NCBI RefSeq assembly: GCF_004765795.1
Contig: NZ_SBIV01000001.1
Span: 558,001-622,000 of the forward strand
DNA: 64,000 bases
Reading direction: 5' to 3'
Source: Halorussus marinus
GTDB taxonomy: Archaea; Halobacteriota; Halobacteria; Halobacteriales; Haladaptataceae
The notes under the pieces were generated by a model. It saw nothing but the letters and a program-made list of their open reading frames with translations, had not been told where the DNA came from and did no database searches. Both the position numbers and the translations under genes were made by a program. This document shows, in pieces, positions 9,042-25,051 of the stretch (within the stretch, counting starts at the first letter, position 1; each line of letters starts with the position of its first letter).

Positions 9042-12000
9042 TCAGTCGCGCTTGCCGAAGAGGAGCGTCGCCGCGAACGCTCCGACGAGGCCGGCGCGGG
9101 CGGGCGCGGTCTCCTCGCGATCGGGGAGCGCGTCGGCCGGCGCGGGCCGGGATTCGGCGGCGGCCGCGCCCGGCGACGCGAGCGCGGAGGCGTTCGACTC
9201 GTTCGCGACCGTGTCGTTCTCGACGGTCTCGTTGGTCGCCGTCTCGTTCGTGACGGTTTCGTTCGTCACAGTTTCGTTCGTGGCGGTCTCGTTGGTTGCC
9301 GTCTCGTTTTGGTCCTGGCGGAGCTGGATCGACTCCTCGGTCAGCGCGACCTCGGTCGCCGAGTCGTTCTCGCCGATGACCTGCGCTTCGGTCACGTCGG
9401 CAGTGGCGTTCGAGAAGGTGATGTTGCCGTCCTCGAACGACTGGCCGGTCACGAACTCGTACGGACCGGTCGCCCGCACGCTCGTGTTGGTGTAGCCCTG
9501 CTCGGGGCCCCACTCGTCGTACCCGGTCGAGGAGTACGGCAGGGTCATCGTGAACTCGCCGTCAGCACCGGTCTGGGCCTGCTGGCGGTAGGTGAACGTC
9601 GAGTTGGCCTCGGTCGGCGACAGCTGGACTCGCGCGGTCACGGTGGCGTTCTCGGGGCCGGTGCCCTCGACGGTCGCGCCGGGGACGCGCTCGAACGTCT
9701 TGACCCACGACGGCGAGGTCCGGAGGATGCGGTTCGGGTTCACGCCGGCCTGCTGGAGCAGGCGCATCTCGCCGCGTAGCGTCTGGACGTACTGCTGGGA
9801 GCTGGTGGCCGAGGACTCGCTCTGTTTGACCAGCCGGTAGTGTTCGAGCGCGGAGACGCGCTCGCTCGGGAACGGCCCGATCCCGCCGATCTGGGCGGTG
9901 CCGTCCTCCTCGACGAACTCGCGGGCCTCCTGCATCGTGTCGAAGTTGCGAACGACCGTCGCGTTCTCGCCCGAGGGCGTACCGACGATCTGGTCGGAGG
10001 AGACCCCCGAGACCGCGTCGTAGTCGACGACCACCGGGCTGGGTTCGACCGCGCTACCCTGATAGAGGTAGAGTCGCGCGACCTGACTCTGATAGTAGCG
10101 CTGGTCTTTCATCCGGAAGGCGATCCGGGGCCGGGTCTGCTCGTCGTTCAGCCCGGAGTACACCCGCGTGTAGAAGTCGAACCGACTCACGTTCTCGTTG
10201 AACACGGTGGGTGCCGAGAACTTCGAGGTCGGCTCGGCCATCTTCCAGTCGGCCATCACGTAGCGGGTCTCCTCGCCGTCGTCGCCGAGCGTCTCGATGA
10301 CCTCGTTGGCCTCCTGTTCGCTGGGCGCGAGCAGGTAGTTCGCGGCGGTAGTCGCGCCCTCCTGGAACGGGTTGGCGTTCGGGATGCGCTCGCCCTGGAC
10401 GGTGATGATGTGGCCGTAGTCCCACCACGACATCACGCCGTACGCGCCGGCCGGGTAGTCGAAGTCACCGTCGTTCTGGTCGTAGGTGCCGTAGTAGTCC
10501 ATCTCGTTGTCGGCGCCGCCGAACGTCCCCTCCTCGGGCGTCTCGTTGGCGAGCCAGTCGAGCGAGCCGTCCCAGTCGGCGATCTCGCCGGGACCGGTGT
10601 TCGCGCCCGCCTGCATGGCGGTGTTGGTCTGGTCGATGTTGGCGACGCCCGTACTGCCGACGGTCGCCGGGAAGACGAGCACCGGCAACACCAGCAGGAC
10701 GACCATCACGACCGACAACACCTGGTAGCCGTCGACGTCGGTGAGCGACTCGCGGTCGGTGAAGTCCGCGATCGCGAGCACGCGACCGGCGAGGTAGGCG
10801 TTCAGCACGGCGACCGGCACCGCGAGGTAATAGTTGAACCTGACCTGCGTGAACGCCGCCGCGACGATGAACGCGGCCCAGACGAGCACGAGCAGTTTCT
10901 CGGCGCTGTGGTCGTCGGTGCGGTAGGTCCGCCACACCAGCCAGATCGCGGCCACGGCGGCCGTGAACAGCATCAGGCCGTACTCCTGCATGATGACGTC
11001 GAACTCGCTGATGCCGTACTGGGGCTGGACACCTCCGGGGCCTTCTGCGAGGAACGGCTGGGCCTCGCCGATAGTTCGGGTCCGGGCGTTCGTTCCCAGT
11101 CCGATCACGCGGAGGACGTTGTTCCGAACGAGGTTGAACAGGCCGGGCGCGCCGACCGCGACGGCGCCGACGACGGCGACGATGATCCCGCCGATCGCGG
11201 GCGGGTACAGCGTGGCGTTGAGGTCGCGGGCGTCCCACACTCGGGCGAGCCACGCCATGAAGACACAGCCGCCGGCGACCGCGAACGCGAGCAGCGGCTG
11301 GAGGGGCGAGAACTTCGTCGGACTGAAATCGAACGTGCCGAGCGGAACGAGCATCAGGAGCCCGGTGACGCTCATGCTGACCGCGCCGACGAACGCGAGG
11401 TGGTCGGGGCTGACCCCCCGGAGGTAGTCGGCCGCGAGCTTGAGCACGAAGAACGCGCCGAAGATACCGATCAGCAGGACGCCGGGCGGCCACGTCCAGA
11501 GGTAGAGCGCCGTCGCGATCCCCGCGAGTACGCTGTAGCCGAGTGGTCGGCGAAGCACCGCGAAATCACGGTCCGCAACGAGTTCGTACACCGGCTTCTC
11601 GCGCTCGGCGACGCTCAGCGCGACCATCATCGCCAGCACCGCGAACGCCTGAAACAGGGGTTCGGCGATGTTGTGATCCGAGAACCCGACCAGACTCCGC
11701 CGGAGGAACGTGCCCGGAAGGAGCGCGAGCACGACGACGCCGAACAGCGCACCGGGGCGGCCGGCGATGCGCTTGCCGAGCAGGTAGGTCGGAATCGCGA
11801 CGAGCGTCCCGAGCACCGCCGGAGCGACGAGGAGGGTCGTCGCCACCGTCTGCTCGGTGGGGCTACCGAGCCCCACGATCAGGGCGGCGGTCGCGACCAA
11901 CTGGTCGTAAAGCGTCCCGAACTGGCCGACGCTGGTGCCGAACGGGAAGTACGTCCAGGGGTCGAACGGCATCGTGCTCGGCCAGTTGGCAACCGTGTAG

Positions 12001-12209
12001 GTGACTTGTCGGAGGTGATACCACGCGTCCGCGCCGGTGAAAAAGACCTCGCCGTCGCGGAAGAAGTTCTCGTACGACTGGACACGCACCCAGAGCATGA
12101 AGGCGATCGCCGCGGCGAGCACGGGGACGTGATACCAGTCCTCGAACGCGTCGAGGATCGACTCGGCCGACTCGGCCGAGTCGTCGACCTGCTCAGTCTG
12201 CTGGCTCAT
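9042..12209 (-). CDS. aglB: Oligosaccharyltransferase AglB (STT3 family)
   Basis: Membrane enzyme (1055 aa) that transfers the dolichol-linked glycan to Asn in N-x-S/T sequons outside the cell. Seen: an N-terminal hydrophobic segment at about 28-42, the acidic motif GADAWYH at 59-65, the SDHNIAE loop, a TIGE motif near 378-381 that fits the archaeal TIXE signature, about a dozen membrane segments, and the catalytic WWDYG at about 595-599. The C-terminal domain is extracellular. Near 967-1007 the protein carries nine sequons in a row, followed by a short hydrophobic stretch and GKRD at the end. The ATG at 12209 was chosen; the longer frame to 12614 is Arg-rich shadow sequence. Confidence 0.97.
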   Translation of the reverse strand: MSQQTEQVDDSAESAESILDAFEDWYHVPVLAAAIAFMLWVRVQSYENFFRDGEVFFTGADAWYHLRQVTYTVANWPSTMPFDPWTYFPFGTSVGQFGTLYDQLVATAALIVGLGSPTEQTVATTLLVAPAVLGTLVAIPTYLLGKRIAGRPGALFGVVVLALLPGTFLRRSLVGFSDHNIAEPLFQAFAVLAMMVALSVAEREKPVYELVADRDFAVLRRPLGYSVLAGIATALYLWTWPPGVLLIGIFGAFFVLKLAADYLRGVSPDHLAFVGAVSMSVTGLLMLVPLGTFDFSPTKFSPLQPLLAFAVAGGCVFMAWLARVWDARDLNATLYPPAIGGIIVAVVGAVAVGAPGLFNLVRNNVLRVIGLGTNARTRTIGEAQPFLAEGPGGVQPQYGISEFDVIMQEYGLMLFTAAVAAIWLVWRTYRTDDHSAEKLLVLVWAAFIVAAAFTQVRFNYYLAVPVAVLNAYLAGRVLAIADFTDRESLTDVDGYQVLSVVMVVLLVLPVLVFPATVGSTGVANIDQTNTAMQAGANTGPGEIADWDGSLDWLANETPEEGTFGGADNEMDYYGTYDQNDGDFDYPAGAYGVMSWWDYGHIITVQGERIPNANPFQEGATTAANYLLAPSEQEANEVIETLGDDGEETRYVMADWKMAEPTSKFSAPTVFNENVSRFDFYTRVYSGLNDEQTRPRIAFRMKDQRYYQSQVARLYLYQGSAVEPSPVVVDYDAVSGVSSDQIVGTPSGENATVVRNFDTMQEAREFVEEDGTAQIGGIGPFPSERVSALEHYRLVKQSESSATSSQQYVQTLRGEMRLLQQAGVNPNRILRTSPSWVKTFERVPGATVEGTGPENATVTARVQLSPTEANSTFTYRQQAQTGADGEFTMTLPYSSTGYDEWGPEQGYTNTSVRATGPYEFVTGQSFEDGNITFSNATADVTEAQVIGENDSATEVALTEESIQLRQDQNETATNETATNETVTNETVTNETATNETVENDTVANESNASALASPGAAAAESRPAPADALPDREETAPARAGLVGAFAATLLFGKRD
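9190..9306 (-). repeat. Imperfect tandem repeat encoding N-E-T sequons in aglB
   Basis: The coding strand repeats a short unit that translates mainly as (A/V)-T-N-E-T. It gives six NET, one NDT, one NES and one NAS sequon over about 40 residues. Third-position differences between units show this is not a very recent duplication. Confidence 0.8.
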
Positions 12210-12301: not shown

Positions 12302-13768
12302 TCACGAAAGCAGTTGACCCCTGAGGTCTCGAAGCACCGCGACCGCGTCGATCCGGATGCGTTCGCTCAGCCCGAGCAGGACGCCGAAGTATGTCAGCCC
12401 GCCGACCGCGAGCAACGCCGCGATCCGGACCGCTCCGGCCGCCCCGCCGAGCTGAAGCTTCAGCGCGTAGACGACGGCGGTCATGACCGCCATCGACGCC
12501 ACCTGATGGCCCACGTCGGTGTAGGTCGACGCCGGAACGGACTCGTCGAGGAAGACGAGCATGGTGGCGACGCTCGCGCCGAACGCGAGGACGGTCGCCC
12601 ACGCGACGCCCCACGCGCCGAACCAGATCGTGAGCGGGACCGCAGAGACGCCGTACACCCCGATGAGGAGCACGCCACTCGCGGCGTAGAGCCGGGGGCG
12701 CCCGGTCCCGAGGAAGAACTTCTCTAAGCCCTCTCGGTACCCGTTGATCAGGTTCGCGACCGCGAGCACCGGGACGAGCGCGTTCGCCAGTCCGACGGCC
12801 CCGAGCACGGGAAGCGTCGCAGTGCCGGCGCTCTCGCCGTAGATGGTCAACAGGAGCGCGTTCCCGATGACCGCGCCCCCGCCGACGATCGGAACCGCGA
12901 ACAGCCCGGCATAGGTGAACACCGCCGACAGGAGTCGACCCACCTCCTCGTCGTCGCCCGCCTCGTTCAGCGCCGAGAATTGCGGGAAGGCGACCTGCGC
13001 AAGCGCAGACGAGAACAGCATCGACGCCTCCGTGAGGGTGAAGACGTTCTTGTACACGCCGGTGGCGGCCGGACCGACGAACTGCTGGATCAGCAGGTAG
13101 TCGGCCTGCTTGAACAGTTGACTGGAGACGCTCCGGACGTAGGCGTACTTCGAGAAGCCGACGAACGACCGGAACAGCGCTACCGAGGGCCGGGCCGGAA
13201 CCACCCGTGCGAACCCGACGTAGGATACCAGAAAGGTGAGAAACTGTCCCGCGATGAGCCCCCAGACGAGTCCCCTGACGCCGTGGCCCTCGACGACCAG
13301 CGCGGCCTGGATCGGGACGATGAGAGCGTACCGGCCGTTCTCTATCGCGCCGACGAGCGCGACGCGTTGTTTGCCTTCGAGAAACGACCCGGAGAGCCGG
13401 AACAGTCCCCAGGTGAGCACGCCGAGCGGGACGAGCAGCGCGACGTCCACCCCCAGCAGGCCGTTGATCGTTCCCCGGAACGCGACCGACAGCGCCGCGA
13501 CCGCCGCCACGCCCGCGAGCAACACGAGCGCGCCGCTGGCGAACTCCCTCGCTTCGGTGTCACCGCCGCTGACCCGCTTGACCAAGACCGGGTAGAGTCC
13601 GAAGCTGAAGACGTTGGCCGCGATCATCTGGAGGCTGAAGTACGCCGCGTAGGTCCCGATGCCGCCGAACCCGAGTTCGCGCGTGAAAAAGACAGTGCCG
13701 AGAAAGCCGGCCACCGTCCCGAGGACGTTCGTGACGAACCGCTTCGAGACCTCCGCGCCGATCTTCAT
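12302..13768 (-). CDS. Polysaccharide/oligosaccharide flippase (MOP superfamily)
   Basis: A 488-aa membrane protein with about 12-14 hydrophobic segments beginning at residue 12 (RFVTNVLGTVAGFLGTVFFT), the pattern of Wzx/RfbX-type and AglR-like flippases. The likely job is moving dolichol-linked oligosaccharide to the outer face for AglB, encoded just downstream on the same strand. Its ATG overlaps the stop codon of the upstream AP-superfamily gene by 4 nt, so those two are coupled. Family membership is clear. The lipid-linked glycan as substrate is inferred from the aglB neighbourhood. Confidence 0.88.
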   Translation of the reverse strand: MKIGAEVSKRFVTNVLGTVAGFLGTVFFTRELGFGGIGTYAAYFSLQMIAANVFSFGLYPVLVKRVSGGDTEAREFASGALVLLAGVAAVAALSVAFRGTINGLLGVDVALLVPLGVLTWGLFRLSGSFLEGKQRVALVGAIENGRYALIVPIQAALVVEGHGVRGLVWGLIAGQFLTFLVSYVGFARVVPARPSVALFRSFVGFSKYAYVRSVSSQLFKQADYLLIQQFVGPAATGVYKNVFTLTEASMLFSSALAQVAFPQFSALNEAGDDEEVGRLLSAVFTYAGLFAVPIVGGGAVIGNALLLTIYGESAGTATLPVLGAVGLANALVPVLAVANLINGYREGLEKFFLGTGRPRLYAASGVLLIGVYGVSAVPLTIWFGAWGVAWATVLAFGASVATMLVFLDESVPASTYTDVGHQVASMAVMTAVVYALKLQLGGAAGAVRIAALLAVGGLTYFGVLLGLSERIRIDAVAVLRDLRGQLLS

Positions 13769-15324
13769 TCCAGATACCCGAGCTCTCGGAGTCGGTCTTT
13801 GACCTCGCCTTCTTTCTCCTCGTCGCCGGCGACGCCGTCGCCCGTCACGGCCGCGTCGCCGACGAAGTCGTAGCTTTCGGGGTCGCGGGTCGCGAGGTCG
13901 CTCCCCGACGCGAACACGTCGAGTACGTCGCCGGCCATCGATTCGGGGAGACGGTAGCCGAGCGCGTGGAGCACTGTCGGCGCGATGTCGGTGATGCGCG
14001 CGCCCTCGATCGTCCCGTCGCGGAACGACGGCCCCCGGGCGAGGAAGATCCCCTCGCGGGCGTGTCCGGAGGTGTCGACCTCGAAGCGGAGGTCGTCGAC
14101 GTCGAACCGCGAAGACGCGTGGACTTCGGGCGTCTCGATGACCATCGCGAGATCCGGGGTGTGGGGGCCGCCGCGGTCGAGGCGGTCGAACCGGACCGAG
14201 AGGCCCTCGCTTTCGGCCCCGTCCCGGAGCGCGGACTCGGCGCGCTCGCAGATCGCGTCGATCTCGTCCGGATCGTCCGCGAGCGCGTAGATTAGCGTCG
14301 TCTTCTGTCCGACGTCGGCTAACGCGGTCGTCTCCGCCCAGTCGATTCGACCCGTGCTCAACGCGTTGTCGAGGCCGAGCGCGTCGCCGGTCGGGACGCC
14401 GGTCAGTGCGCTCTCGGGGACCAGCTTACGGGCGAGCGTGAGCAGGCCGGCCTTCCCGAGCAGGTCGCTGGCGGCGTCTCGGGCGGTCCCCATCGCCGCC
14501 TTGGTCGCGTCGCCGGACTCGGTCAGCGAGACGAGCCCCGCTCGTTCGAGCACCACGTTGGGCGCGAACTTCGAGCGGACCTTCTCGAAGCCGTGGTCGC
14601 TCATCACGATGAGGTCCTTGTCGGCGTGGGCGTCGAGAAACTCCCCGAGGCGCTCGTCGACCCGCCGATAGACCTCGAAGAGTTCGTTGTCCGAGGCGGC
14701 CGGCGGCGTGCTTTCGGCGCCCCAGTAGTGGTGGGCCACCCGATCGGTCGCTCGGATCAGCCCGACCGCGAGCTCCGGGTCCTCGCGGTCGATGAAGTGT
14801 TCGAACGCCTCGAACCGCTTGTCGACCAGGTCGAGGCTCTCGTCGACGTACTCGCGAGACCCCGGCGGCTGGTCGTTCCGGAGCTTGTAGCCGTCGACGA
14901 GGTCGACGAGTTCGTCCCACCGCGCTGGCGGGTGGGCGTACTCGTCTTTGTACTCGGGGGCGGCCGCAATGATGGTGCCGTCGATCGCCTGCCAGGGGTA
15001 CGACCCCGGGATGTTGAACACGACGACCGACCCGTCCTGATCGTCGACGGCGTCCCACATCTTACCGGGGACGAACTCGTCGTGGCTCAGGTCGTTTTCG
15101 CGGGTCTCCCGGTTGAAGTGGGTGAACCCGTACATGTCGAGGTCGGTCGGCTCCCGACCGGTCGCGAACGCCGGCCACGCCGGGACGGTGATCTCGGGGA
15201 CCGTGCTCTCTAACTCCCCGCTGACGCTCTCGTCGAGCAGACGCTCGAAGTTCGGGAGGCGGCCGGACTCCACCCACGGCTCGATGACCGAGAGGGTCGC
15301 GCCGTCGAGTCCGAGGACTATCAT
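13765..15324 (-). CDS. Alkaline phosphatase superfamily enzyme 1 (NPP-like)
   Basis: A 519-aa cytoplasmic enzyme of the type I phosphodiesterase/nucleotide pyrophosphatase branch. The full metal site can be traced: Asp in VLGLDGATL (residue 6), nucleophile Thr in PEITVPAW (about residue 49), Asp and His in TDRVAHHYW, Asp-His in MSDHGFE, and a final His in SGHAREGIF. It has no signal peptide, because the first beta strand begins at residue 2. It ends in RELGYLE, like five neighbours. The ATG at 15324 was preferred to the frame start at 15351. It is coupled to the flippase by ATGA. The substrate is unknown; a phosphate diester or monoester on a glycan precursor is my inference. Confidence 0.85.
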   Translation of the reverse strand: MIVLGLDGATLSVIEPWVESGRLPNFERLLDESVSGELESTVPEITVPAWPAFATGREPTDLDMYGFTHFNRETRENDLSHDEFVPGKMWDAVDDQDGSVVVFNIPGSYPWQAIDGTIIAAAPEYKDEYAHPPARWDELVDLVDGYKLRNDQPPGSREYVDESLDLVDKRFEAFEHFIDREDPELAVGLIRATDRVAHHYWGAESTPPAASDNELFEVYRRVDERLGEFLDAHADKDLIVMSDHGFEKVRSKFAPNVVLERAGLVSLTESGDATKAAMGTARDAASDLLGKAGLLTLARKLVPESALTGVPTGDALGLDNALSTGRIDWAETTALADVGQKTTLIYALADDPDEIDAICERAESALRDGAESEGLSVRFDRLDRGGPHTPDLAMVIETPEVHASSRFDVDDLRFEVDTSGHAREGIFLARGPSFRDGTIEGARITDIAPTVLHALGYRLPESMAGDVLDVFASGSDLATRDPESYDFVGDAAVTGDGVAGDEEKEGEVKDRLRELGYLE

Positions 15325-15346
15325 GTGGGGGCGAACGCGGGGCCCG

Positions 15347-15356
15347 GCCAAAAGGA
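15347..15356 (-). promoter_or_regulatory. TATA-like box of AP-superfamily gene 1
   Basis: TCCTTTTGGC on the reverse strand, centred 27 nt before the ATG at 15324. It argues for that start and a leaderless transcript. Confidence 0.45.
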
Positions 15357-15364
15357 GTTTGGTC

Positions 15365-16969
15365 CTACTCCAGATACCCCAGATCGGAGAGGCGCTCGGC
15401 GACGTCGGCGTCCTCGGTGGCTGCCTGCGTGGCCGCTTCGTAGTCGGGGTAGGATCGCTCGTCGGGGGCGTCGACGGCGGCGAGCGGGTCCCCGTCCATC
15501 ACCGTGGCCGGCGCGACGTCGAGAGTCGCCAGCACCGTCGACGCGACGTCGAACAGGTGTGCGCCCGAGAGGTCCGCTCCGGAGTCGACGCCCTCGCCCG
15601 CCAGCGCGATCACGCCGTGTCGCTTGTGGTTCCACGGCTCGGGCTCGCCGAACTGCTCGCCGACGAGCGCCGAGAGGCCGTGCTGGAAGTCGGTCGGCAC
15701 CGCCAGCACGTCGACCGCTTCTTGGGCGTACGGGCCGTCGATGTACTTCTCCCGGGGCACGACTTCCTCGAACACCGGCGTCCCCGTCGGCGTGGTCGCG
15801 CTCGACAGGAGCGAGATCACCTCCTCGCGGACCCGATCGTACTCGTCTCGCGCCACGACGCCGTCGGGGTCTCGCCCCTCGACGTTCAGCCTGACGCCCA
15901 GTTCCGACGGCGACCGGAGGTACGCTCGCGACGCCGAGAAGTCGACCGCGTCGCTCGCGGCGAACACCGCTCCGACCGGGACGTGGCGACCGACGAACTC
16001 CGCGAGCCCGAGCCGTTCGAGCACCGCTTTCCCGCGCTGGTAGGTCAGCCCGACGGTCGCCGCCGTCGCCGCGAGCCGTTCGAGCACGGGATGGCCCGAC
16101 GCCCCCTGCTCGGCGCCCCCCGTCAAGCGCTCGTCTTTGATCTGGAACCACGAGGGGACGCCCTGACCGCCGGTGGTGGTCTCGACCACGCCCGCTTCCC
16201 GGAGGAACTCGTTGACGCGGAACTCGTAGCCGTCGTACTCGCCCATGCCATGGTCGCTGGCGACCACGACGGTGTCGGGGTCGCACTCGTCGAGGATCGC
16301 GCCGATCTGCTCGTCGACGGCCCGGTAGATGCGCCGGACCTTCCCGTGGTCGCCGGGGTAATCGTGGAACACCGCGTCGGTCTTCTGGAACTGGACGAAG
16401 CCGAACTCGGGACCGAACCGGTCGGCGAGATACCGGAACGCGGCCCCGCGCATCCGAGCGAGTTCGAGGTAGTCCTCGAACCGGTCGTCGCCAGCCGTCT
16501 CGTCGGTCTCGCGGCGGGCGTACACGCGGTAGTCGCCGACCGCCTCGCGCACGTCGTCCAGAATCCCGTCGGGGTGACAGTCCGGATCCTCGGCGGCGAG
16601 GTAGCCCGGGACGACCGCGCCGTCGACGTCGGGCGGCGGGCTCGTGACGGGGGCGTTGACGACCACGCTCGTCAGGCCCGCCGCGTCGGCGTACTCCCAG
16701 AGCGTTCGCTGTCGAACGTCGGTCGCGTTCACGATGTCCCAGTCGTAGCCGTCGAACCGCAGGAAGTCGAACACGCCGTGCTTGCCGGGGTTCGTTCCGG
16801 TGTACAGCGACGGCCACGCGCTCGCGGTCCACGGCGGAATCTGAGACTCCAGTCGCCCGGTCGCCCCGTCGTCGAACAGCGATTCGAGGTGCGGGAGGGC
16901 ACCGTCCTCGAACAGCGGTCGGAGTACGGGGAAGCAGGCGGCGTCGAGTCCGACCAGCAACGTCTGCAT
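15365..16969 (-). CDS. Alkaline phosphatase superfamily enzyme 2 (NPP-like)
   Basis: A 534-aa paralog of the previous gene, same branch. Metal and catalytic residues: Asp in LLVGLDAA (residue 9), Thr in PPWTASAWPS, Asp and His in KTDAVFHDY, Asp-His in ASDHGMGEYDG and a late His in KRHGVIAL. No signal peptide is present, so it acts in the cytoplasm. It ends in SDLGYLE. It has its own TATA-like box. The middle insertion, about residues 240-420, is longer than in enzyme 1 and may shape substrate choice. The specific reaction cannot be read from the sequence. Confidence 0.84.
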   Translation of the reverse strand: MQTLLVGLDAACFPVLRPLFEDGALPHLESLFDDGATGRLESQIPPWTASAWPSLYTGTNPGKHGVFDFLRFDGYDWDIVNATDVRQRTLWEYADAAGLTSVVVNAPVTSPPPDVDGAVVPGYLAAEDPDCHPDGILDDVREAVGDYRVYARRETDETAGDDRFEDYLELARMRGAAFRYLADRFGPEFGFVQFQKTDAVFHDYPGDHGKVRRIYRAVDEQIGAILDECDPDTVVVASDHGMGEYDGYEFRVNEFLREAGVVETTTGGQGVPSWFQIKDERLTGGAEQGASGHPVLERLAATAATVGLTYQRGKAVLERLGLAEFVGRHVPVGAVFAASDAVDFSASRAYLRSPSELGVRLNVEGRDPDGVVARDEYDRVREEVISLLSSATTPTGTPVFEEVVPREKYIDGPYAQEAVDVLAVPTDFQHGLSALVGEQFGEPEPWNHKRHGVIALAGEGVDSGADLSGAHLFDVASTVLATLDVAPATVMDGDPLAAVDAPDERSYPDYEAATQAATEDADVAERLSDLGYLE

Positions 16970-16992
16970 GTCTCGACCGACCGGACCCGCCG

Positions 16993-17001
16993 GCTTAAAA
17001 C
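16993..17001 (-). promoter_or_regulatory. TATA-like box of AP-superfamily gene 2
   Basis: GTTTTAAGC on the reverse strand, centred 28 nt before the ATG at 16969; leaderless spacing. Confidence 0.55.
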
Positions 17002-17016
17002 TGCTTTTCTCCGGCG

Positions 17017-18501
17017 CTACTCGATATACCCCAGCTCCCTGAGGTTGCGCTCGACGCCAGGACTGTAGTCGGCGTCGCTCTCGCTACCTGCTTTCTCGAA
17101 GCGCTCGCCGAGCGCTTCGGTGACTCGCGCCCGAAGGTCGGCGACGACCGACTCGTCGGGCTCGGCGACGACTGACTCGCCGGGCAGGTCGTAGAGGATC
17201 TCGGTGCCGTCCGACCGGAGTTCGAATCTGTACTCGTCGGTTCGGACCGACTTGCGACCGAGTTCGAACGCCCGGAGCGTCTCGGCCGAAACCTCGTCCA
17301 CGGCCTCGGTATCGGACAGATCCGAGGGCGCTTCGGCCGCGTAGACGGCGTCCCGAGCGTCGCCGCCGAACAGCGAGTCGCCCGCCGTCTCAGGAGCGTC
17401 CAGCCCGCAGAGCTCACAGAGCGTCGCGAACAGGTCGACGTGCGAGGCGAGCTTGTCGCGGGGATCGGCCTCCGGAACGCCGGGACCGGCGAACACGAGC
17501 GGGACGCGTGTCACCTCGTCGTAGAGGAAGTTGCCGTGGTACAGCGCACCGTGCTCGCCGAACAGTTCGCCGTGATCGGACGTGAGGACGACGACAGTGT
17601 CATCGGCGAGTCCCGCGCGTTCGAACCACTCCAGAAACGCGCCGAGACGGTCGTCGAGATACCGGAGGCTCGCGGCATACCACTCCCGAAGCACGTCGAG
17701 TTCGGCCTCCGTCAGCGACGAGGAATCGTCTCGATACCGCAACGCGATGCTCTGGGCGCCCGCCCCGTCGGCCGCGGCGAACAGTCTGTCGTCGTCGACC
17801 GCTGGGTCGTCGTACTGGCACGGCGAGTCGATCAACTCCTCGACTAGCCCGAACCGGGGCCGGGAAAGCGCTGGCGTCTGGTCGTGCTTGTACGGCCGCG
17901 GCGGGTCGTAGGGCGCGTGGACCGTCGTCAGGTTCGCCATGGCGAAGAACGGCTCTGGGGTGTCGGCGAGCCACTCCCGAAGCTTCTCGAACTTGATCTC
18001 GGTGTAGTAGTCGTTCCCCTGTGAGGCCAGCCTGAAGAAGTCTCGGCGGATCAGCGGATCGGTCACGAGCTGATAGAGATACGCGACCGACGGTCGCTCG
18101 GCCACTTCCTCGTAGACCTCGTAGTAGGCTTCGAACCCGCGGTCGAGCCCGGTCGCCGATCCCATCTTTGCGGGCCCCGGAATGCCGAAGGTTCGATACC
18201 CGCGGTCCGCGAACCACTCCGCCAACAGCGGAACCGACTCAGGCATCGTCGGCCACGCGCCGTCGAATCCGGTCTGGTTGGGATACTGCCCGGAGAAAAG
18301 CGCTCCGTGCGACGGCGGCGTCCACGGCCCGACTGCGAAAGCGTTCTCGAAGCTCGTCCCTCGCTCGGCCACGCCGTCGATGGTCGGCGTTTCGACCGGA
18401 AACGCGCCGTCGTCACAGGAGAGCGCATCGGCCCGGAGCGTGTCGAAAACTAGCAGGAGGACGTTCGGATACTCGGTTCTCGGAACTCTCACTGGCGCCA
18501 T
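17017..18501 (-). CDS. Alkaline phosphatase superfamily enzyme 3 (sulfatase-like fold, Thr nucleophile)
   Basis: A 494-aa protein of the sulfatase-like branch. Seen: LLLVFDTLRAD near the N-terminus, PWTPPSHGALFSGQYP at the nucleophile site, TSDHGELFGEHG and HGNFLYDEVTRVPLVF near the end. A formylglycine sulfatase would have C/S-x-P-x-R; here Cys is Thr and the Arg is His. A phosphohydrolase or phosphotransferase of the EptA/LtaS/OpgB type is therefore more likely than a sulfatase. It has no signal peptide and ends in RELGYIE. The ATG at 18501 is preferred over a TTG at 18537. It is divergent from the GT4 gene at 18579. Confidence 0.83.
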   Translation of the reverse strand: MAPVRVPRTEYPNVLLLVFDTLRADALSCDDGAFPVETPTIDGVAERGTSFENAFAVGPWTPPSHGALFSGQYPNQTGFDGAWPTMPESVPLLAEWFADRGYRTFGIPGPAKMGSATGLDRGFEAYYEVYEEVAERPSVAYLYQLVTDPLIRRDFFRLASQGNDYYTEIKFEKLREWLADTPEPFFAMANLTTVHAPYDPPRPYKHDQTPALSRPRFGLVEELIDSPCQYDDPAVDDDRLFAAADGAGAQSIALRYRDDSSSLTEAELDVLREWYAASLRYLDDRLGAFLEWFERAGLADDTVVVLTSDHGELFGEHGALYHGNFLYDEVTRVPLVFAGPGVPEADPRDKLASHVDLFATLCELCGLDAPETAGDSLFGGDARDAVYAAEAPSDLSDTEAVDEVSAETLRAFELGRKSVRTDEYRFELRSDGTEILYDLPGESVVAEPDESVVADLRARVTEALGERFEKAGSESDADYSPGVERNLRELGYIE

Positions 18502-18545
18502 CTCTCGACCCCCATGAACTACCGAGGAGGGGATCAACGAACGGG

Positions 18546-18554
18546 AACTTTAAC
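18546..18554 (+). promoter_or_regulatory. TATA-like box of the GT4 gene at 18579
   Basis: AACTTTAAC, centred 29 nt before the ATG at 18579. The same nonamer recurs before the gene at 19638. Confidence 0.6.
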
Positions 18555-18578
18555 CGTTCGGCCCGCCGCGTCCCGAAC

Positions 18579-19613
18579 ATGGACCCCGACGCCGCCCGCG
18601 TGGCGATGCTCCACCAGGACCCCCATCCCGCCCACCGCGGCTTCGCGGAGGCGATCGGCGCGGACCTCGTCGACTACCACCGGCGGTCGGCCGGCCCCCT
18701 CGACGGTACCCTCGCCGAGGACGCGCTGAACGGACTCACGTACCCCGATTACGACGTCTACATCGTGGAGGGGTCGCGACCCCTGTACGCCGGACTACTC
18801 TGCCGGTTCGCCCGCGGCGGCAAACTGGTCTATCTCTGTGCGGACCACGGGCTCTACCGGCTCGGTAGCGCCGACTTCGAGGGCGACTCGGCGCTCAAGT
18901 CGCTGATCGGGACGTTCGGTACGCCGGCGGTCCGGGCGGCCGGACGGCGCGGGATCGACGGCGTGATCGCGGTCTCGGCGTTCGCCGCGGAGTTCACCCG
19001 GCCCGTGGTCGGCCCGAAGACCCCGATCGAGGTCGCCCATCCGTTCGTCCAGCCGTCGACCTACGACGCGCTCGGTGACGTCGAACCGAGCCTCGGCTCG
19101 GAGGTCGCCGTGACCGTCGCGCGGCCTTGGGAGTACAAGGGCGTCGACCTGCTCGTCGACGCGTGGCCCCGGGTCCGCGAGTCGTTCCCCGACGCGGAAC
19201 TCCACGTCGTCGGCGGGGGACACCCGGAGTCGTACGCCGAGACTCCGGGCGTCCGGGTTCGGGGGTACGTCGAGGACCTCGCCGACGCGTTCGCGCCCGG
19301 TTCGCTGTTCGTCCAGCCGTCGCGGATGGACACCTTCCCGGTGAGCACGCTCGAAGCGATGCGTGCCGGCCTCCCGCCGCTGGTGACACGGACGACCGGC
19401 ACGCGATCGGAGGCCCGACGGATCGACGAGTCGCTCGTGGTCGAACCGAACGAGGACGCGCTCGCTCGCGGCGTCCGCAGGTACTTCGAACGCGACCTCG
19501 CCGACCGACGCTCGCTCTCGGAGACCGCCCGCGACCGGGGCGGCCGGTTCGATCGGGACTCGCGAACCGCCGCGTTCCGGGCGGCCTACCGCGACGTTCT
19601 CGAAGAACTTTAA
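18579..19613 (+). CDS. GT4-like glycosyltransferase
   Basis: A 344-aa GT-B-fold glycosyltransferase, short for family GT4 because the N-terminal acceptor domain is compact (about residues 1-155). The donor domain shows VTVARPWEYKGVDLLVDAW, a central Gly-rich strand (LHVVGGGHPE), and the C-terminal motif FVQPSRMDTFPVSTLEAMRAG, in which the usual E-x7-E pattern is only partly kept (the first Glu is replaced by Met-Asp). No membrane segment is seen, so it is cytosolic or membrane-associated. It probably adds a sugar to the dolichol-linked glycan made in this island; donor sugar and acceptor cannot be read. The start was chosen by the TATA spacing and the lack of similarity further upstream. Confidence 0.8.
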   Translation: MDPDAARVAMLHQDPHPAHRGFAEAIGADLVDYHRRSAGPLDGTLAEDALNGLTYPDYDVYIVEGSRPLYAGLLCRFARGGKLVYLCADHGLYRLGSADFEGDSALKSLIGTFGTPAVRAAGRRGIDGVIAVSAFAAEFTRPVVGPKTPIEVAHPFVQPSTYDALGDVEPSLGSEVAVTVARPWEYKGVDLLVDAWPRVRESFPDAELHVVGGGHPESYAETPGVRVRGYVEDLADAFAPGSLFVQPSRMDTFPVSTLEAMRAGLPPLVTRTTGTRSEARRIDESLVVEPNEDALARGVRRYFERDLADRRSLSETARDRGGRFDRDSRTAAFRAAYRDVLEEL

Positions 19614-19614
19614 C
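19606..19614 (+). promoter_or_regulatory. TATA-like box of AP-superfamily gene 4, inside the previous stop codon
   Basis: AACTTTAAC spans the TAA stop of the glycosyltransferase gene and is centred 28 nt before the ATG at 19638. It is identical to the box that drives that glycosyltransferase. Confidence 0.55.
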
Positions 19615-19637
19615 GCCGGACCGGCGATTGTCCGCCC

Positions 19638-21203
19638 ATGACCGTCTACGTCGTCGGACTCGACGGGGCCGACTGGTCGCTGCTCCGACCGTGGGCCGAG
19701 GCGGGCCACCTCCCGACGGTCGCCCGGATTCTCGACGAGGGCGTCGCGGGCGACCTCCAGAGCACGCTCCCGCCGGTCACGTTCCCGGCGTGGAAGTGTT
19801 ACTCGACGGGCAAGACTCCCGGGAAGCTCGGCGTCTACGAGTGGTTCGCGTACGACAGAACGACCCACGACATCTCGGCGAACGACGCCAGCGACTTCCG
19901 GTCGCGCGAGTACTGGGACGTGTTGGCCGACCGCGACCGGCGCGCGGGCGTGATCAACATGCCGACGACCCACCCTGCCGGCGCGGACGAGGGCGTGAAC
20001 GCGACGGACGACGGGCCCTTCATCATCGCGGGGAGCCCCGCAAGCGAGCGCAAGGCGTTCACCAGCCCCGCGTCGCTGAGGACGGAACTGCTCGAGGAGA
20101 TCCCCGACTACCGGGTCAAGCCCGACCTCGTCCTCGACGAGGCGTCGCCCGACGAGTTGGTCGCCGAGGCCCGCGATCTGTTCGAACAGCGCTTCGACGC
20201 CGCGACGTGGCTCGCCGACGAGAAAGACTGCGAGCTGGTCCACACCACGCTCTTTGCGACCGACACGCTCCAACACCGGCTCTGGGATCGCCCCGAGAAG
20301 CTCCGGGCGGCCTACGAGCGCGTCGACGACCTGCTCGCGGACCTGCTCGCACGCGAGGACGCCGAGGCCGTCGTGCTCATGAGCGACCACGGCTTCGCCG
20401 AGATCGACGAGATCTTTCTCGTGAATCAGTGGTTGGCCGAGCGGGGCGACCTCGTCGTCGAGGACTCGGAGGCCCGCGACCTGCTGGCGTCGGTCGGGCT
20501 CACCGAAGAACGGCTCAAGCGGTTGGTCGATCGGCTCGGACTCGTCAATCTCGCCCAGTCGCTCGTGCCCGAGTCCCTCCAGCGGTTCTTCCCGAGCGAG
20601 AGCGGTCGCGTGGCGATTCAGGACGCCGGAATCGACTGGACCGAGACGAAGGCCGTCTCGCTCGGCCGCGGACCGATCTACGTCAACCGCGACGCGTTCC
20701 CGGACGAGGAGGCGGCCGACGCCTACGCCGAGGCGCTGGCGGCCGACCTCGAAGCGCTCGAAACGCCGTCGGGCGATCCGGTCGCGGCCGCGGTCCGCGA
20801 TCCGGCGGACGTTTACACCGGCGAGCGACCGCGCGCTCCGGATCTGGTGGTGGAGTACGCGACCGGCGTCGACGCCCCCGAAGCGATCGGCGGCGGTGTC
20901 TTCGGCGAGACCACCGAGTGGCTGGCGACCCACCGCCGCACGGGGGTGTTTGCGGCGTGGGGCGAGGACGTCGCGACCGGGAGCGCCGACCTCGAACTGT
21001 ACGACCTCGCGCCGACTCTGCTCCACTATCTCGGTGCGCCCGTCCCCGAAGACGTCGACGGCGACGTTCGATTCGACGTGTTAGCCGGCGAGCCAGCCGA
21101 TCGATCGATCGAGACGGGGGCGCCGACAGCGGCCGACGCGGCCGGCGAGCGCGCGGGCGAGGAGGTCGAAGACACACTACGAGAGCTTGGGTATCTGGAA
21201 TGA
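19638..21203 (+). CDS. Alkaline phosphatase superfamily enzyme 4 (NPP-like)
   Basis: A 521-aa cytoplasmic enzyme close to enzymes 1 and 2. Seen: VVGLDGADWSLLRPW at the N-terminus, Thr nucleophile in PPVTFPAWKCYSTG, ATDTLQHRLW, MSDHGFAEID, and THRRTGVFAAWG carrying the last His. The metal site is therefore complete. It ends in RELGYLE and overlaps the next gene by ATGA, pairing one NPP-like with one sulfatase-like enzyme in an operon. It is not exported. The reaction is unknown; the location beside glycosyltransferases suggests a glycan precursor as substrate. Confidence 0.85.
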   Translation: MTVYVVGLDGADWSLLRPWAEAGHLPTVARILDEGVAGDLQSTLPPVTFPAWKCYSTGKTPGKLGVYEWFAYDRTTHDISANDASDFRSREYWDVLADRDRRAGVINMPTTHPAGADEGVNATDDGPFIIAGSPASERKAFTSPASLRTELLEEIPDYRVKPDLVLDEASPDELVAEARDLFEQRFDAATWLADEKDCELVHTTLFATDTLQHRLWDRPEKLRAAYERVDDLLADLLAREDAEAVVLMSDHGFAEIDEIFLVNQWLAERGDLVVEDSEARDLLASVGLTEERLKRLVDRLGLVNLAQSLVPESLQRFFPSESGRVAIQDAGIDWTETKAVSLGRGPIYVNRDAFPDEEAADAYAEALAADLEALETPSGDPVAAAVRDPADVYTGERPRAPDLVVEYATGVDAPEAIGGGVFGETTEWLATHRRTGVFAAWGEDVATGSADLELYDLAPTLLHYLGAPVPEDVDGDVRFDVLAGEPADRSIETGAPTAADAAGERAGEEVEDTLRELGYLE

Positions 21204-22552
21204 ATCCCCTGAAGCGGTTTCCCCGCGCGAACAACGCGTGGATGGACCTGAAACACCGCGTGCGCCACTGGCGAAAGCGACGCGACCGGGCCGTTCGGAC
21301 GGGCGTTTCGGTGGATGAGCCTCGTAACGTCCTCGTGGTCGTCGTCGACTGCCTGCGCGCAGACCACGTCTCGGGATTCGGCCACGACCGCGAGACGACG
21401 CCCACGCTCGATGCGTTTGCGGATGGCGCCGCCGCGTTCTCGAACGCGAAAGCGCCGAGCCCGTGGACGTTTCCCTCGGTTCCGTCGGTCCTGTCGGGAC
21501 GCTATCCTCACGAGCACGGGGGCCGACTCGAACCCGACCCGCGGAACCTCTCGGCCGAACAGTTTCCCCGTAGGCCGCGGACTGACGTCCCGATGCTCCC
21601 CGACCTGCTCGAAAGCGCCGGGTACGACACCGGGATGATAACCGCGATTCCCATGGCGGAGGAGGCGGTCGGCGACCGGTTTCAGCATGTGAGCGTCCGC
21701 TATACGGACGCGACCGAGCGAGTGTCGTCTGCTCGCGAGTGGTTCGCCGGGCGTGACAGGTGGTTCTGCCACCTCCACCTCGGCGACCCTCACGCGCCAC
21801 TCGACGTCCCGGACGAACACCGAGCGGAGTTCGGCGTACCGGACCTCGAGAATGTCGAGGACTGGCGATTCCGCGAATCGACCGGCGACGAGGGGTTCGA
21901 GCGGTACCGTGACGCCCGACGCCGAGCGTACGATGCGGCTGTTAGGGGGGCGGACGACGCGCTCGCGGGCCTACTCGCGGACCTCGACGACGACACCGTC
22001 GTCGTGGTGTGTGGCGATCACGGCGAGGCGTTCTGGGAGCACCCCGACCTCGAACGGCGGCTCAACGACGATCCCCGCGGCTACTACGGGACCGACCACG
22101 GCCACAGCGTCTTCGAGGAAGTCGCCCGAGTACCCCTCTGGGTACGCGCGCCCGGCGTCCATCCGGAGCGCTCGGATCGACCGGTCTCGCTCGTGGACGT
22201 GGCGCCGACGGTGCTCTCGACGCTCGGGGCGGACGTACCGGCCGGTATCAGCGGTCGATCGCTCGATACCGACCCCGACCGGGACCGACCGCTCCTCTGT
22301 GAGGAGACCGCCTACGGCTACAATCAACGCGCGGTCTGGCGAGACGGCCAGAAAGTGATCGCGGTGCCCGAAACGGCGACGAGACTGGCGTTCGATCTCG
22401 ACGGCGGCCTCGAAACAGACCCGCTCGAAACGGTCCCAGACCGTCTCGAATCAGGACTCTCCGGGTTCGGATCGGGCGTCGACGGCGGCCAGCAGATGTC
22501 TGTCGACGACGACACCCGCGACCGACTCGCGGAACTCGGCTACCTCGAATAG
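21200..22552 (+). CDS. Alkaline phosphatase superfamily enzyme 5 (sulfatase-like fold, Thr nucleophile)
   Basis: A 450-aa protein starting at the ATG that overlaps the previous stop (ATGA). About 45 basic and aromatic residues precede the first strand NVLVVVVDCLRADHVSG, a possible membrane-surface or partner contact. The nucleophile site reads SPWTFPSVPSVLSGRYP: Thr, with no CxPxR signature. Late metal ligands are in GDHGEAFWEHP and GTDHGHSVFEEVARVPLW. It ends in AELGYLE. Its stop codon abuts the stop of the convergent gene 6. A phosphatase or phosphotransferase role is inferred from the residues. Confidence 0.82.
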   Translation: MNPLKRFPRANNAWMDLKHRVRHWRKRRDRAVRTGVSVDEPRNVLVVVVDCLRADHVSGFGHDRETTPTLDAFADGAAAFSNAKAPSPWTFPSVPSVLSGRYPHEHGGRLEPDPRNLSAEQFPRRPRTDVPMLPDLLESAGYDTGMITAIPMAEEAVGDRFQHVSVRYTDATERVSSAREWFAGRDRWFCHLHLGDPHAPLDVPDEHRAEFGVPDLENVEDWRFRESTGDEGFERYRDARRRAYDAAVRGADDALAGLLADLDDDTVVVVCGDHGEAFWEHPDLERRLNDDPRGYYGTDHGHSVFEEVARVPLWVRAPGVHPERSDRPVSLVDVAPTVLSTLGADVPAGISGRSLDTDPDRDRPLLCEETAYGYNQRAVWRDGQKVIAVPETATRLAFDLDGGLETDPLETVPDRLESGLSGFGSGVDGGQQMSVDDDTRDRLAELGYLE

Positions 22553-23932
22553 CTACTCCATGTAGCCGAGGTCTTTGAGGTGCTGTTCGACCATCTCGTC
22601 GTCCTCGGCGACGGCGTCGGAGCCGCCCTCGCGCAACCGCTTCATCCGCGCCTGATGGTCGTCGAGCGCGCGCGCGAGGTCGCCGTACTCGGGGGCGTCG
22701 CCAGACCGGTCGTCCTCCGGGCGCTCCTCGGGGGTCGCGCTCACGTCGAAGCAGAGTTCGCCGTCGTCGGCGTGGCGAAGGAGCTTCCAGCCGTCGGCTC
22801 GCCGGGCGCAACACCGCGCGTACTCGATCTGGCGACCGACGTCGGCGAACCCGTACTCGCGGGGGTCGGCCTCGCCGTCGGCGACCGCGAGCGCGGACTC
22901 GCCCTCCCAGCCGGCGTGGGGATCGAGACCGAGCGCGTCCGCGATCGTCGGCGCGACGTCGAGGAGTCTGACCTGCCCCTCGACCGGCTCGGCGCGCTCG
23001 ACGTCGTTTCGCGCCGGGTGAGAGACGATCAGCGGGACCCGGAGGACGCCTTCCCAGAACTCCGGCGGGTGGCCCGCGTGACCGTGCTCGCCGACGAGTT
23101 CGCCGTGATCGGCCGTGAAGACGACGAGCGTCTCGTCGAGCTCGTTACGTTCGCGCAGGGCGTCCAGTAAGGCGTCGAACTGGTCGTCGACGTAGGCGCA
23201 CTCGGCGTCGTAGAGTTTCCGGATCAGCTCCCACTCGCGGTCGGTGACTGCCTCGGGATGGTGGGTCCCCTTCCGCGAGAGCCCGCGACAGGTCGCGAGG
23301 TCGAGCGGTTCGTCCAGAAACTGACGCTGGTACTCCTCGGGCGCCTCGTAGGGGTGGTGGGCGTCCATGTAGTGGAGCCAGGTGAACCACTCGCCCGTCT
23401 GGTCGCCGATCCACTCGATGGCGCGGTCGTTGAGCGATTCGGCGCGCTCGTACTCGCTGTCGTTGCCCGTCGCGGTCGCGAACAGCGCGTCGGCGCGGTT
23501 GTACACCGTCTCTATCGTCTTGAACACCGCGCCGTCCTTGTCGAGGTTCGACTGGACGAACTGCTTGAGCCGCCCCGCCTCGGTCGTGCCGCTGGCGTCG
23601 TACATCGACTCGAACCCCCGGTCGTAGCGGTACGAACCGCTCGCGAAGTGATTGTCGGTGTAGCCCGCGGTGGCGTACCCGGCGTCCCGGAGCGACTCGG
23701 CCAGCGTCCTGATGCCGTCGTCCGAGCCCGGTTCCGGGAGGCCCAGTCCCTCGATGCTGGCGAAGTATCGGCTCGCGAGGATGGCCGGGAACGACGCCGG
23801 CGTCGAGGGGCCGTTCGCGACGCACTCGGCGAACTCCAGCGCCTCGTCCGCGAACGACCGCGTCGCGGGCATCACATCCGGACTCACCCGGTCGGCGCGC
23901 AGGGAGTCGACCGTGACGAGGAGGACGTTCAT
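22553..23932 (-). CDS. Alkaline phosphatase superfamily enzyme 6 (sulfatase-like fold, Thr nucleophile)
   Basis: A 459-aa cytoplasmic enzyme. Seen: NVLLVTVDSLRADRVSPD at the N-terminus, GPSTPASFPAILASRYF at the nucleophile position (Thr in place of Cys, Phe in place of the sulfatase Arg), WLHYMDAHHPYEAPEEY, FTADHGELVGEHGHAGHPPE and VLRVPLIVSHPA. It ends in KDLGYME, the most divergent version of the shared tag. It has a clear TATA-like box and a short palindrome before its ATG. The substrate is unknown. Confidence 0.83.
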   Translation of the reverse strand: MNVLLVTVDSLRADRVSPDVMPATRSFADEALEFAECVANGPSTPASFPAILASRYFASIEGLGLPEPGSDDGIRTLAESLRDAGYATAGYTDNHFASGSYRYDRGFESMYDASGTTEAGRLKQFVQSNLDKDGAVFKTIETVYNRADALFATATGNDSEYERAESLNDRAIEWIGDQTGEWFTWLHYMDAHHPYEAPEEYQRQFLDEPLDLATCRGLSRKGTHHPEAVTDREWELIRKLYDAECAYVDDQFDALLDALRERNELDETLVVFTADHGELVGEHGHAGHPPEFWEGVLRVPLIVSHPARNDVERAEPVEGQVRLLDVAPTIADALGLDPHAGWEGESALAVADGEADPREYGFADVGRQIEYARCCARRADGWKLLRHADDGELCFDVSATPEERPEDDRSGDAPEYGDLARALDDHQARMKRLREGGSDAVAEDDEMVEQHLKDLGYME

Positions 23933-24010: not shown

Positions 24011-25051
24011 CTACGATTGGTAGACCGCGGCCACGCGCTCGCTCACGTCGTCCCACGACGGCAGTACGGCGGTGGGGGCGTCGCGCTCGGCGGCCTCACG
24101 AACGGCTTCGGAGACGGCCGTAGAGTCGACGTCCGCGACGCCGACGCAGTCATCGCGGTCGGTCCAGTCGACCAGCGCTCCGGCCTCCCGGACGACGCAC
24201 GGCGTCCCGGCCGCCAGCGCCTCGGCGACCGTCATGCCGTACGACTCGAACGACGAGAGCGCGAGGTAGGTCTCGGCGCCGGCGTACAGACCGGGCAGGC
24301 GCTCGTCGGCGACGTAACCCAGAAACGTCACGCGGTCGGCGACGCCGGCCTCTCGGGCGATCGCTTCGAGTTCCGGGCGGTAGTCGCCCGACCCGGCGAC
24401 CAGCAGGTCGTACTCCGGGAGGTCGGCGAGCGCCCGAATCGCGTGCTGGACGCCCTTGTACGCCTCCAGCCGGCCGACACAGAGCAAGTATGGGCGGTCG
24501 CGGCGTTCGGGCGATGCGTCGGCGAACCGCGCGACGTCGAGGCCGTTCGGGATCACGGTCGCCTCGGCTCCGAAGTCCGCGCGGAGCCGGCCGCGTTCCC
24601 AGTCGCTGACGGCGATCACGGCGTCGGCTCGGCCGAGCGCCCACCCGCCGACCGGTCGGTACAGCGAGAGCAGTCGGTCCCGAAGGTCGCCGGCGCTCGC
24701 GCCGTGATAGTGGGTCGTCACGACGAACCGTGCGTCGCCGGCGCCGAGCGCCGCGAACAGCACCGGTAGCGAGTGATAGTTGTGCGCGTGGATCACGTCG
24801 GGATCGACCCGCCGGACCGCGCGGGCGATCCCCGGCGCGACGTGGAAGGCGCCGCCGGGCGCGAACCCCCGGAAGCGCCGGACCGACACGCCGTTTCGCG
24901 TCTCCCGATCCGGAACGTCGGCGCCGGCGTCGGCGGCGAACACGGTCACGTCGTGGCCCCGAGCCGCGAGCCGCTCGCTGATCTCGGCGACGTGAGTCTC
25001 GACGCCGCCGGTGTGGGGCGGGTATCGCGGCGCGACCTGCAGGATCTCCAT
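24011..25051 (-). CDS. GT4 family glycosyltransferase
   Basis: A 346-aa GT-B glycosyltransferase. Seen: the N-terminal APRYPPHTGGVETHVAEI pattern typical of GT4 enzymes, VIHAHNYHSLP, the donor-binding VGRLEAYKGVQHAIRAL, and LALSSFESYGMTVAEALAAG near residue 270 with the E-x7-E pair. It starts 1 nt after the stop of the GT2 gene, so the two are cotranscribed. It probably extends the dolichol-linked N-glycan whose first sugar is added by AglJ. Sugar specificity cannot be read. Confidence 0.88.
   Translation of the reverse strand: MEILQVAPRYPPHTGGVETHVAEISERLAARGHDVTVFAADAGADVPDRETRNGVSVRRFRGFAPGGAFHVAPGIARAVRRVDPDVIHAHNYHSLPVLFAALGAGDARFVVTTHYHGASAGDLRDRLLSLYRPVGGWALGRADAVIAVSDWERGRLRADFGAEATVIPNGLDVARFADASPERRDRPYLLCVGRLEAYKGVQHAIRALADLPEYDLLVAGSGDYRPELEAIAREAGVADRVTFLGYVADERLPGLYAGAETYLALSSFESYGMTVAEALAAGTPCVVREAGALVDWTDRDDCVGVADVDSTAVSEAVREAAERDAPTAVLPSWDDVSERVAAVYQS

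Follow-up and report, generated by a model that had tools for sequence, protein, structure and literature searches.

Gene organization of the locus

We analysed a 64,000-nucleotide window of a haloarchaeal genome of 3.76 Mb (positions 558001–622000 of contig C1), in which six complete open reading frames (ORFs) for enzymes of the alkaline-phosphatase (AP) superfamily, here called P1–P6, are located between aglB and aglJ (Table 1). Judged by gene order and spacing, the genes form three apparent operons. The first, on the minus strand, is P3-P2-P1-flippase-aglB, with a four-base overlap between the end of P1 and the flippase gene; the second, on the plus strand, is GT4-P4-P5, with the start of P5 overlapping the stop of P4 by four bases; the third, again on the minus strand, is GT2-GT4-P6. 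The start codon of P1 is either ATG at 15324 or TTG at 15351. Pairwise identity is 26–32% inside the NPP-like and the sulfatase-like group, and from their sequences P1–P6 are taken to be old paralogues.

Table 1. Genes of the aglB–aglJ segment, in window coordinates (GT, glycosyltransferase family)
Gene	Position	Strand	Features	Evidence
polyprenyl-phosphate transporter-like gene (PopT/DUF368 type)	8009..8983	-		NF052564 181 bits, below cut-off; synteny
aglB	9042..12209	-	oligosaccharyltransferase (archaeosortase-A-system STT3)	TIGR04154 949.6 bits
flippase	12302..13768	-	polysaccharide flippase (Wzx type)	PF13440, PF01943
P1	13765..15324	-	NPP-like; Thr in PEITVP; tail LRELGYLE	PF01663 119 bits
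P2	15365..16969	-	NPP-like; Thr in PPWTAS; tail LSDLGYLE	PF01663 118 bits
P3	17017..18501	-	sulfatase-like; Thr in PWTPPSHG, no CxPxR; tail LRELGYIE	PF00884 149 bits
GT4	18579..19613	+	glycosyltransferase; heads the apparent GT4-P4-P5 operon	PF13692, PF00534
P4	19638..21203	+	NPP-like; Thr in PPVTFP; tail LRELGYLE	PF01663 136 bits
P5	21200..22552	+	sulfatase-like; Thr in PWTFPSV; tail LAELGYLE	PF00884 129 bits
P6	22553..23932	-	sulfatase-like; Thr in PSTPASF; tail LKDLGYME	PF00884 133 bits
GT4	24011..25051	-	glycosyltransferase	PF13439, PF00534
GT2	25053..26195	-	glycosyltransferase	PF00535
aglJ	26345..27250	+	first glycosyltransferase of the N-glycan pathway	TIGR04182 468.9 bits

Active site, fold and localization

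An earlier note on this DNA had described six AP genes amid a flippase, three glycosyltransferases, aglB and aglJ, all with Thr as the nucleophile, the sulfatase-like three without the C/S-x-P-x-R signature and none with a signal peptide. The Pfam and TIGR matches, the alignments and the hydropathy profiles agree with this description. In the alignments, Thr occupies the nucleophile column in all six enzymes, and that of P3 is aligned with position 84 of the sulfatase PsS1_NC (6pt6, C84S in that entry). The formylglycine signature C/S-x-P-x-R occurs in none of P1–P6, and P3, P5 and P6 have no Arg at +4; a formylglycine sulfatase identity is rejected for these three because Thr, not Cys, stands in the nucleophile column. 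No membrane segment is found in P1–P6 by hydropathy (the maximum 19-residue mean is 1.41) and no signal peptide is apparent, as expected of cytoplasmic proteins.

The superfamily assignment rests on Pfam for all six, on predicted structures and their matches for P3 and P4, and on the metal ligands of the NPP-like three. The AlphaFold model of P4 has a predicted local distance difference test (pLDDT) value of 84 and is matched by Foldseek to the NPP structures 7n1s (E 2e-17) and 2gsn, and also to 4gtw. All 31 sequences compared share the residues D9, D209, H213, D250, H251 and H432 (P4 numbering), which with the nucleophile T48 make up the full two-metal ligand set; thus P4 combines the NPP fold (PF01663), the Thr and the two-metal ligands. 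The same D, Thr, D, H, D, H, H set is found in each of P1, P2 and P4. The model of P3 (pLDDT 88) matches S1 sulfatases at VIA Z 36, with values of 33–36 for BT1596, FA22070 and PsS1_NC. In the sulfatase-like branch all 49 sequences have H195, D309 and H310 (P3 numbering); the metal ligand D20 is kept in 47 of them and is Glu in the other two. None of P1–P6 has the P-loop sulfotransferase fold (PF13469); they match the other folds named above.

The C-terminal LGY tail

All six enzymes end in the motif LxxLGYxE (Table 1), a C-terminal LGY tail that is absent from the earlier note. In the host genome, the exact C-terminus reads [LM]xx[LM]GY plus one or two residues in 13 AP-superfamily proteins, drawn from both branches; this ending is absent from the arylsulfatase-type enzyme, a phosphoglycerate-mutase-like protein and three other AP enzymes. 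The DNA pattern LGY[LIMVF]E-stop matches this genome seven times, always in AP genes, and its reversed control gives 0 matches. Among the AP ORFs of the fetched loci, 123 of 135 have the tail; of the remaining 12, five are broken or cut by the locus end and the others belong to different kinds of AP enzyme. When about 85,000 species genomes were scanned with a degenerate pattern for HLED[L/F]GYL-stop, 16 sites matched: 13 long ORFs with an AP profile, one fragment of a known AP tail family and two micro-ORFs, which we take as chance. The 13 long ORFs come from Halobacteria, except for three that are bacterial (two Armatimonadota-type contigs and one Actinomycetota contig). The counts from the two pattern searches and the fetched loci, those for the aglB and control windows and those for four plasmid loci (both below) are unbiased. 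The rows of alignments A1 and A2 were picked for having the tail, so that conservation of the tail there is partly selection; the single gap in the tail columns of A1 arises because the P1 row ends short of the C-terminus.

Since the pattern scans return AP genes, we have so far rejected the idea that the tail is general to many proteins. Chance probably explains two tail-like ends, those of a ribbon-helix-helix ORF (L027) and of a membrane protein (L155), and the only match in a scan of viral contigs is a 15-codon chance ORF. A third, short AP-like class of about 320 residues (DWDxLxxLDACRxD ... SDHGN ... VPW) likewise ends in the tail. Members of this divergent, AP/PglZ-like class lie near aglB (L098:17073-18020, L030:14647-15591, L060:4476-5453 and others) and are barely recognized by Pfam. 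On an Actinomycetota contig (L085:582-5655), three tandem NPP-like genes, all tailed, adjoin the nucleotide-sugar genes rmlD and an epimerase gene. We found no earlier report, in the searchable literature, of an LGY tail shared by these enzymes.

In the AlphaFold models of P3 and P4, most of the core exceeds a pLDDT of 90, and the tail is a short helix beyond a low-confidence linker, with a pLDDT of about 40 in P4 and 65 in P3. A helix tethered by a flexible linker would fit a docking motif, for which such pLDDT values are weak evidence.

Linkage to aglB across Halobacteria

We located aglB in all 116 sampled Halobacteria and compared 60 aglB windows of 20 kb, from 46 genera, with 40 control windows elsewhere in the same genomes. 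Tailed AP genes are present in 29 of the 60 aglB windows versus two of the 40 controls (odds ratio 18, Fisher p = 2e-6), and another three aglB windows hold the short AP-like class only. These counts reject chance clustering of the six genes and support the view, also taken in the earlier note, that they are dedicated to a glycosylation island. Nor is the cluster itself fortuitous, because it contains six of the host's approximately 17 AP genes and its arrangement mostly recurs in congeners. The order aglB-flippase-P1-P2-P3-GT4 is conserved in a genus of another family (L022, L023). Within the host's own genus, four of seven genomes (L094, L095, L096 and L098) retain most or all of the six-gene set, and in two (L092 and L097) the stretch from aglB to GT4/GT2/aglJ, or the surroundings of the flippase, is occupied by different genes. 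The segment from aglB to GT4/GT2/aglJ therefore appears to be swapped as a cassette within the genus, as expected of an exchanged glycan locus, which suggests strain-specific N-glycans.

Two further observations concern aglB and its neighbour. The PopT/DUF368-type gene adjoins aglB in the majority of the Halobacteria examined. The window AglB carries a C-terminal run of N-E-T repeats (NETATNETATNETVTNETVTNETATNET...) followed by a hydrophobic C-terminus; through these repeats the oligosaccharyltransferase itself presents a series of potential N-glycosylation sequons.

Tail and formylglycine cysteine

In the tailed sulfatase-like ORFs the nucleophile is Thr (51) or Ser (28) and never Cys. Conversely, the tail is missing from all five Cys-type sulfatases checked, the host's own and four of Halomontanus. 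The latter, all of them CxPxR sulfatases, are encoded together with a GH97 gene in a plasmid cluster, one of four annotated plasmid loci that we compared without selecting for tails. In the other three, glycosyltransferase loci of Haloarcula hispanica pHH400, Halobaculum salinum and a Natrinema sp., all eight AP-like proteins are tailed and without CxPxR. On the sequences compared, the tail and the formylglycine cysteine are mutually exclusive. Formylglycine allows sulfatases to shed sulfate by elimination, a route closed to an ordinary ester of Thr or Ser; a Thr or Ser nucleophile would therefore suit transfer to an acceptor better than hydrolysis.

Sulfate-activating enzymes with the same tail

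The tail is not confined to AP-fold enzymes. In Salinibaculum litoreum (L083), two tailed AP genes flank the genes of a sulfate adenylyltransferase (Sat; 463 bits) and an adenosine 5′-phosphosulfate (APS) kinase (176 bits), both over cut-off. The kinase (5072-5692) is itself tailed, its C-terminus being EITDRLESLGYLDE. The kinase gene apsK is found over cut-off in 27 of 391 Halobacteria. Nine of the ten Sat-adjacent APS kinases (L083, L159-L167) are tailed, those of L083 and L159-L166, versus none of the other CysC-like class, the one scanned being fused to an adenylyltransferase-like domain (Fisher p = 2e-6). An APS kinase of the Sat-linked type is encoded about 5 kb from aglB in one genome (G094), and in another (G021) about 10 kb from aglB and 2–3 kb from a tailed AP gene.

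In the host genome, a CysD-like protein (approximately C1:205786-206760; L118:1045-2013) ends in LMERLRDLGYM. The nearest solved structure is CysD (1zun), and the protein scores far below the CysD cut-offs. It contains no cysteine, and is therefore unlikely to be a reductase of 3′-phosphoadenosine 5′-phosphosulfate (PAPS). The tail is kept in all of the full-length homologues read on three haloarchaeal and two Desulfolutivibrio plasmids; among these PAPS-reductase-family proteins (L193-L197), the haloarchaeal copies are cysteine-free. On the Halopiger plasmid pHALXA01, the neighbours of the homologue are genes for a PiT-type transporter and glycosyltransferases and two AP genes with the tail. 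Genes for PiT-family-looking transporters occur near a tailed AP gene in the host (C1:386342-390574, L006) and beside a CysD-like gene (L193:6783-7904). The PiT family includes sulfate permeases (CysP), so that these genes may import sulfate.

Tailed relatives in Halobacterium salinarum

Tailed relatives of P1–P6 have been studied by Zaretsky et al. (mBio 2025, PMC11980604), who knocked out three AP-like genes from the aglB cluster of Hbt. salinarum. The di-sulfated tetrasaccharide decreased 250-fold without VNG1056C, over 50-fold without VNG1057C and over 300-fold without both, and either gene, expressed in Hfx. volcanii, puts sulfate on the glycan of that species. The two proteins were named Agl30 (VNG1056C) and Agl31 (VNG1057C); in vivo they sulfate the N-glycan as sulfotransferases, and the tetrasaccharide is complete before it is sulfated. 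The passages of that paper used here mention neither the nucleophile nor the tail. We reverse-complemented the cloning primers given there and obtained the C-termini HLEDLGYL (Agl30), LEELGYT (Agl31) and KELGYIE (VNG1063H, the third gene); hence the tested sulfotransferases bear the same tail as P1–P6. Agl30 and Agl31 retained activity with Strep/His tags at the C-terminus, so the carboxyl end probably does not have to be free.

Proposed function of P1–P6

We consider P1–P6 to be cytoplasmic glycan sulfotransferases of the Agl30/Agl31 kind on an AP fold, with a probability of roughly 0.6. They would be new members of this kind, and the NPP-like branch a new variant of it. In the proposed mechanism, the activated sulfate donor is APS or PAPS, and the metal-activated Thr would form a sulfo-Thr intermediate by attacking the donor's sulfur. 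A sugar hydroxyl of the dolichyl-phosphate-linked glycan would then accept the sulfuryl group, ahead of the flippase and AglB, each divergent paralogue serving its own sugar and position. Because the tail is present on unrelated enzymes of one pathway, it may act as a docking tag common to these enzymes, the Sat-linked APS kinase and the CysD-like protein, gathering donor synthesis and transfer in one place.

Several points weigh against this assignment. First, the tested relatives include none of the NPP-like branch, whose closest folds, as judged from the P4 model, are phosphodiesterases; for P1, P2 and P4 a sulfotransferase role is suggested more weakly, and for P1–P6 as a whole the argument is comparative. 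Second, deletion of VNG1063H left sulfation unchanged although this protein is tailed (PMC11980604). Third, the comparison with Agl30 and Agl31 at sequence and structure level covers their primer-read C-termini and published structure matches. Moreover, a mere 9.5 mDa separates sulfate from phosphate, and the masses quoted for Hfx. volcanii would, taken alone, fit phosphate too. Lastly, ATP sulfurylase (PF01747), apsK and Sulfotransfer_3 (PF13469) were not found in the host genome, so the donor would have to be supplied by the CysD-like protein or in some other way. A weak apsK match in this genome (L072) was rejected as FtsY-like.

The earlier note had concluded that the six work in the cytoplasm as phosphatases, phosphodiesterases or phosphotransferases that modify or proofread lipid-linked glycans or nucleotide sugars. 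On this view they might, for example, make phosphodiester-linked glycan substituents. A Thr nucleophile is indeed typical of phosphoryl-transfer AP enzymes, and P4 combines an NPP-like fold with a complete two-metal site. However, the tailed relatives that have been tested transfer sulfate in vivo and the tail is common to sulfate-activating enzymes, which makes phosphate-ester chemistry for the whole set unlikely; a phosphoryl-transfer role for some of P1–P6 is possible. The Thr nucleophile, the cytoplasmic location and the dedication to the island in that interpretation stand, and its phosphate-ester chemistry is not supported.

A division of labour, in which the sulfatase-like three are sulfotransferases and the NPP-like three work on the donor side, for example by clearing the by-products 3′-phosphoadenosine 5′-phosphate or adenosine monophosphate or excess APS, seems less probable still. 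It would suit the nucleotide-binding NPP fold (P4 matches 7n1s and 4gtw) and the apparently shared operons of equally tailed NPP-like and sulfatase-like genes, here and in congeners. However, some tailed NPP-like genes have no sulfatase-like partner close by, as in the tandem three of the Actinomycetota contig, and three divergent donor-recycling paralogues at one locus seem excessive. Finally, formylglycine-free sulfatases that edit glycans by removing sulfate, for which the PF00884 assignment and the S1-sulfatase fold speak, are very improbable, since Thr replaces formylglycine, C/S-x-P-x-R is absent, haloarchaeal Cys-type sulfatases are tail-less and the relatives Agl30 and Agl31 add sulfate.

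Beyond the sulfotransferase assignment, we tentatively suggest that the LGY tail may be a portable, so far undescribed docking tag that assembles a cytoplasmic sulfation complex of tailed transferases and the tailed sulfate-activating enzymes (Sat-linked APS kinase and CysD-like protein). Its transferases would be AP-fold enzymes of three branches (NPP-like, sulfatase-like and short form) with a covalent sulfo-Thr intermediate, unrelated to P-loop sulfotransferases and present also in bacteria. Agl30 and Agl31 were reported as sulfotransferases despite their sulfatase look, with the mechanism unexplained; a second enzyme fold for biological sulfotransfer is suggested, with a testable coupling of donor synthesis to transfer. 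The tail also offers a sequence rule that would separate biosynthetic AP-fold enzymes, with Thr or Ser and the LGY tail, from the tail-less catabolic sulfatases with Cys, ties AP-fold enzymes to sulfate activation and would correct many annotations. Mislabelling was anticipated in the earlier note, and homologues are in fact annotated as 'sulfatase', 'sulfatase-like hydrolase/transferase' or 'alkaline phosphatase family protein'. If the sulfotransferase assignment is right, the N-glycans of this haloarchaeal genus should bear several sulfates.

Comparison with known systems

P1–P6 share with Agl30 and Agl31 the AP-like domain, the location in an aglB glycosylation cluster and the C-terminal LxxLGY(x) tail, and the sulfatase-like branch has the same nearest sulfatase structures: the best matches of P3 include BT1596 and FA22070, given as the closest structures to Agl30 and Agl31 in PMC11980604. 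However, the window genes number six and include three of the NPP-like instead of the sulfatase-like kind, and Agl30 is membrane-associated whereas P1–P6 have no membrane segment. The S1 formylglycine sulfatases BT1596, FA22070 and PsS1_NC resemble P3 in fold and nucleophile position; the window enzymes differ from them by the Thr in place of the formylglycine cysteine, the lack of CxPxR, the LGY tail and the biosynthetic context. P4 has the fold of the NPPs (Xac NPP 2gsn, the ENPP family) and phosphonoacetate hydrolase, and P1, P2 and P4 have their bimetal site and Thr, although identity is about 16% and the window enzymes are cytoplasmic, LGY-tailed and set in a glycosylation context. EptA, LtaS and OpgB are AP-superfamily enzymes with a Thr nucleophile that modify glycans or lipids. 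In contrast to P1–P6, they have membrane domains and act outside the cytoplasm, and we reject an EptA/LtaS-type identity for the six on this ground.

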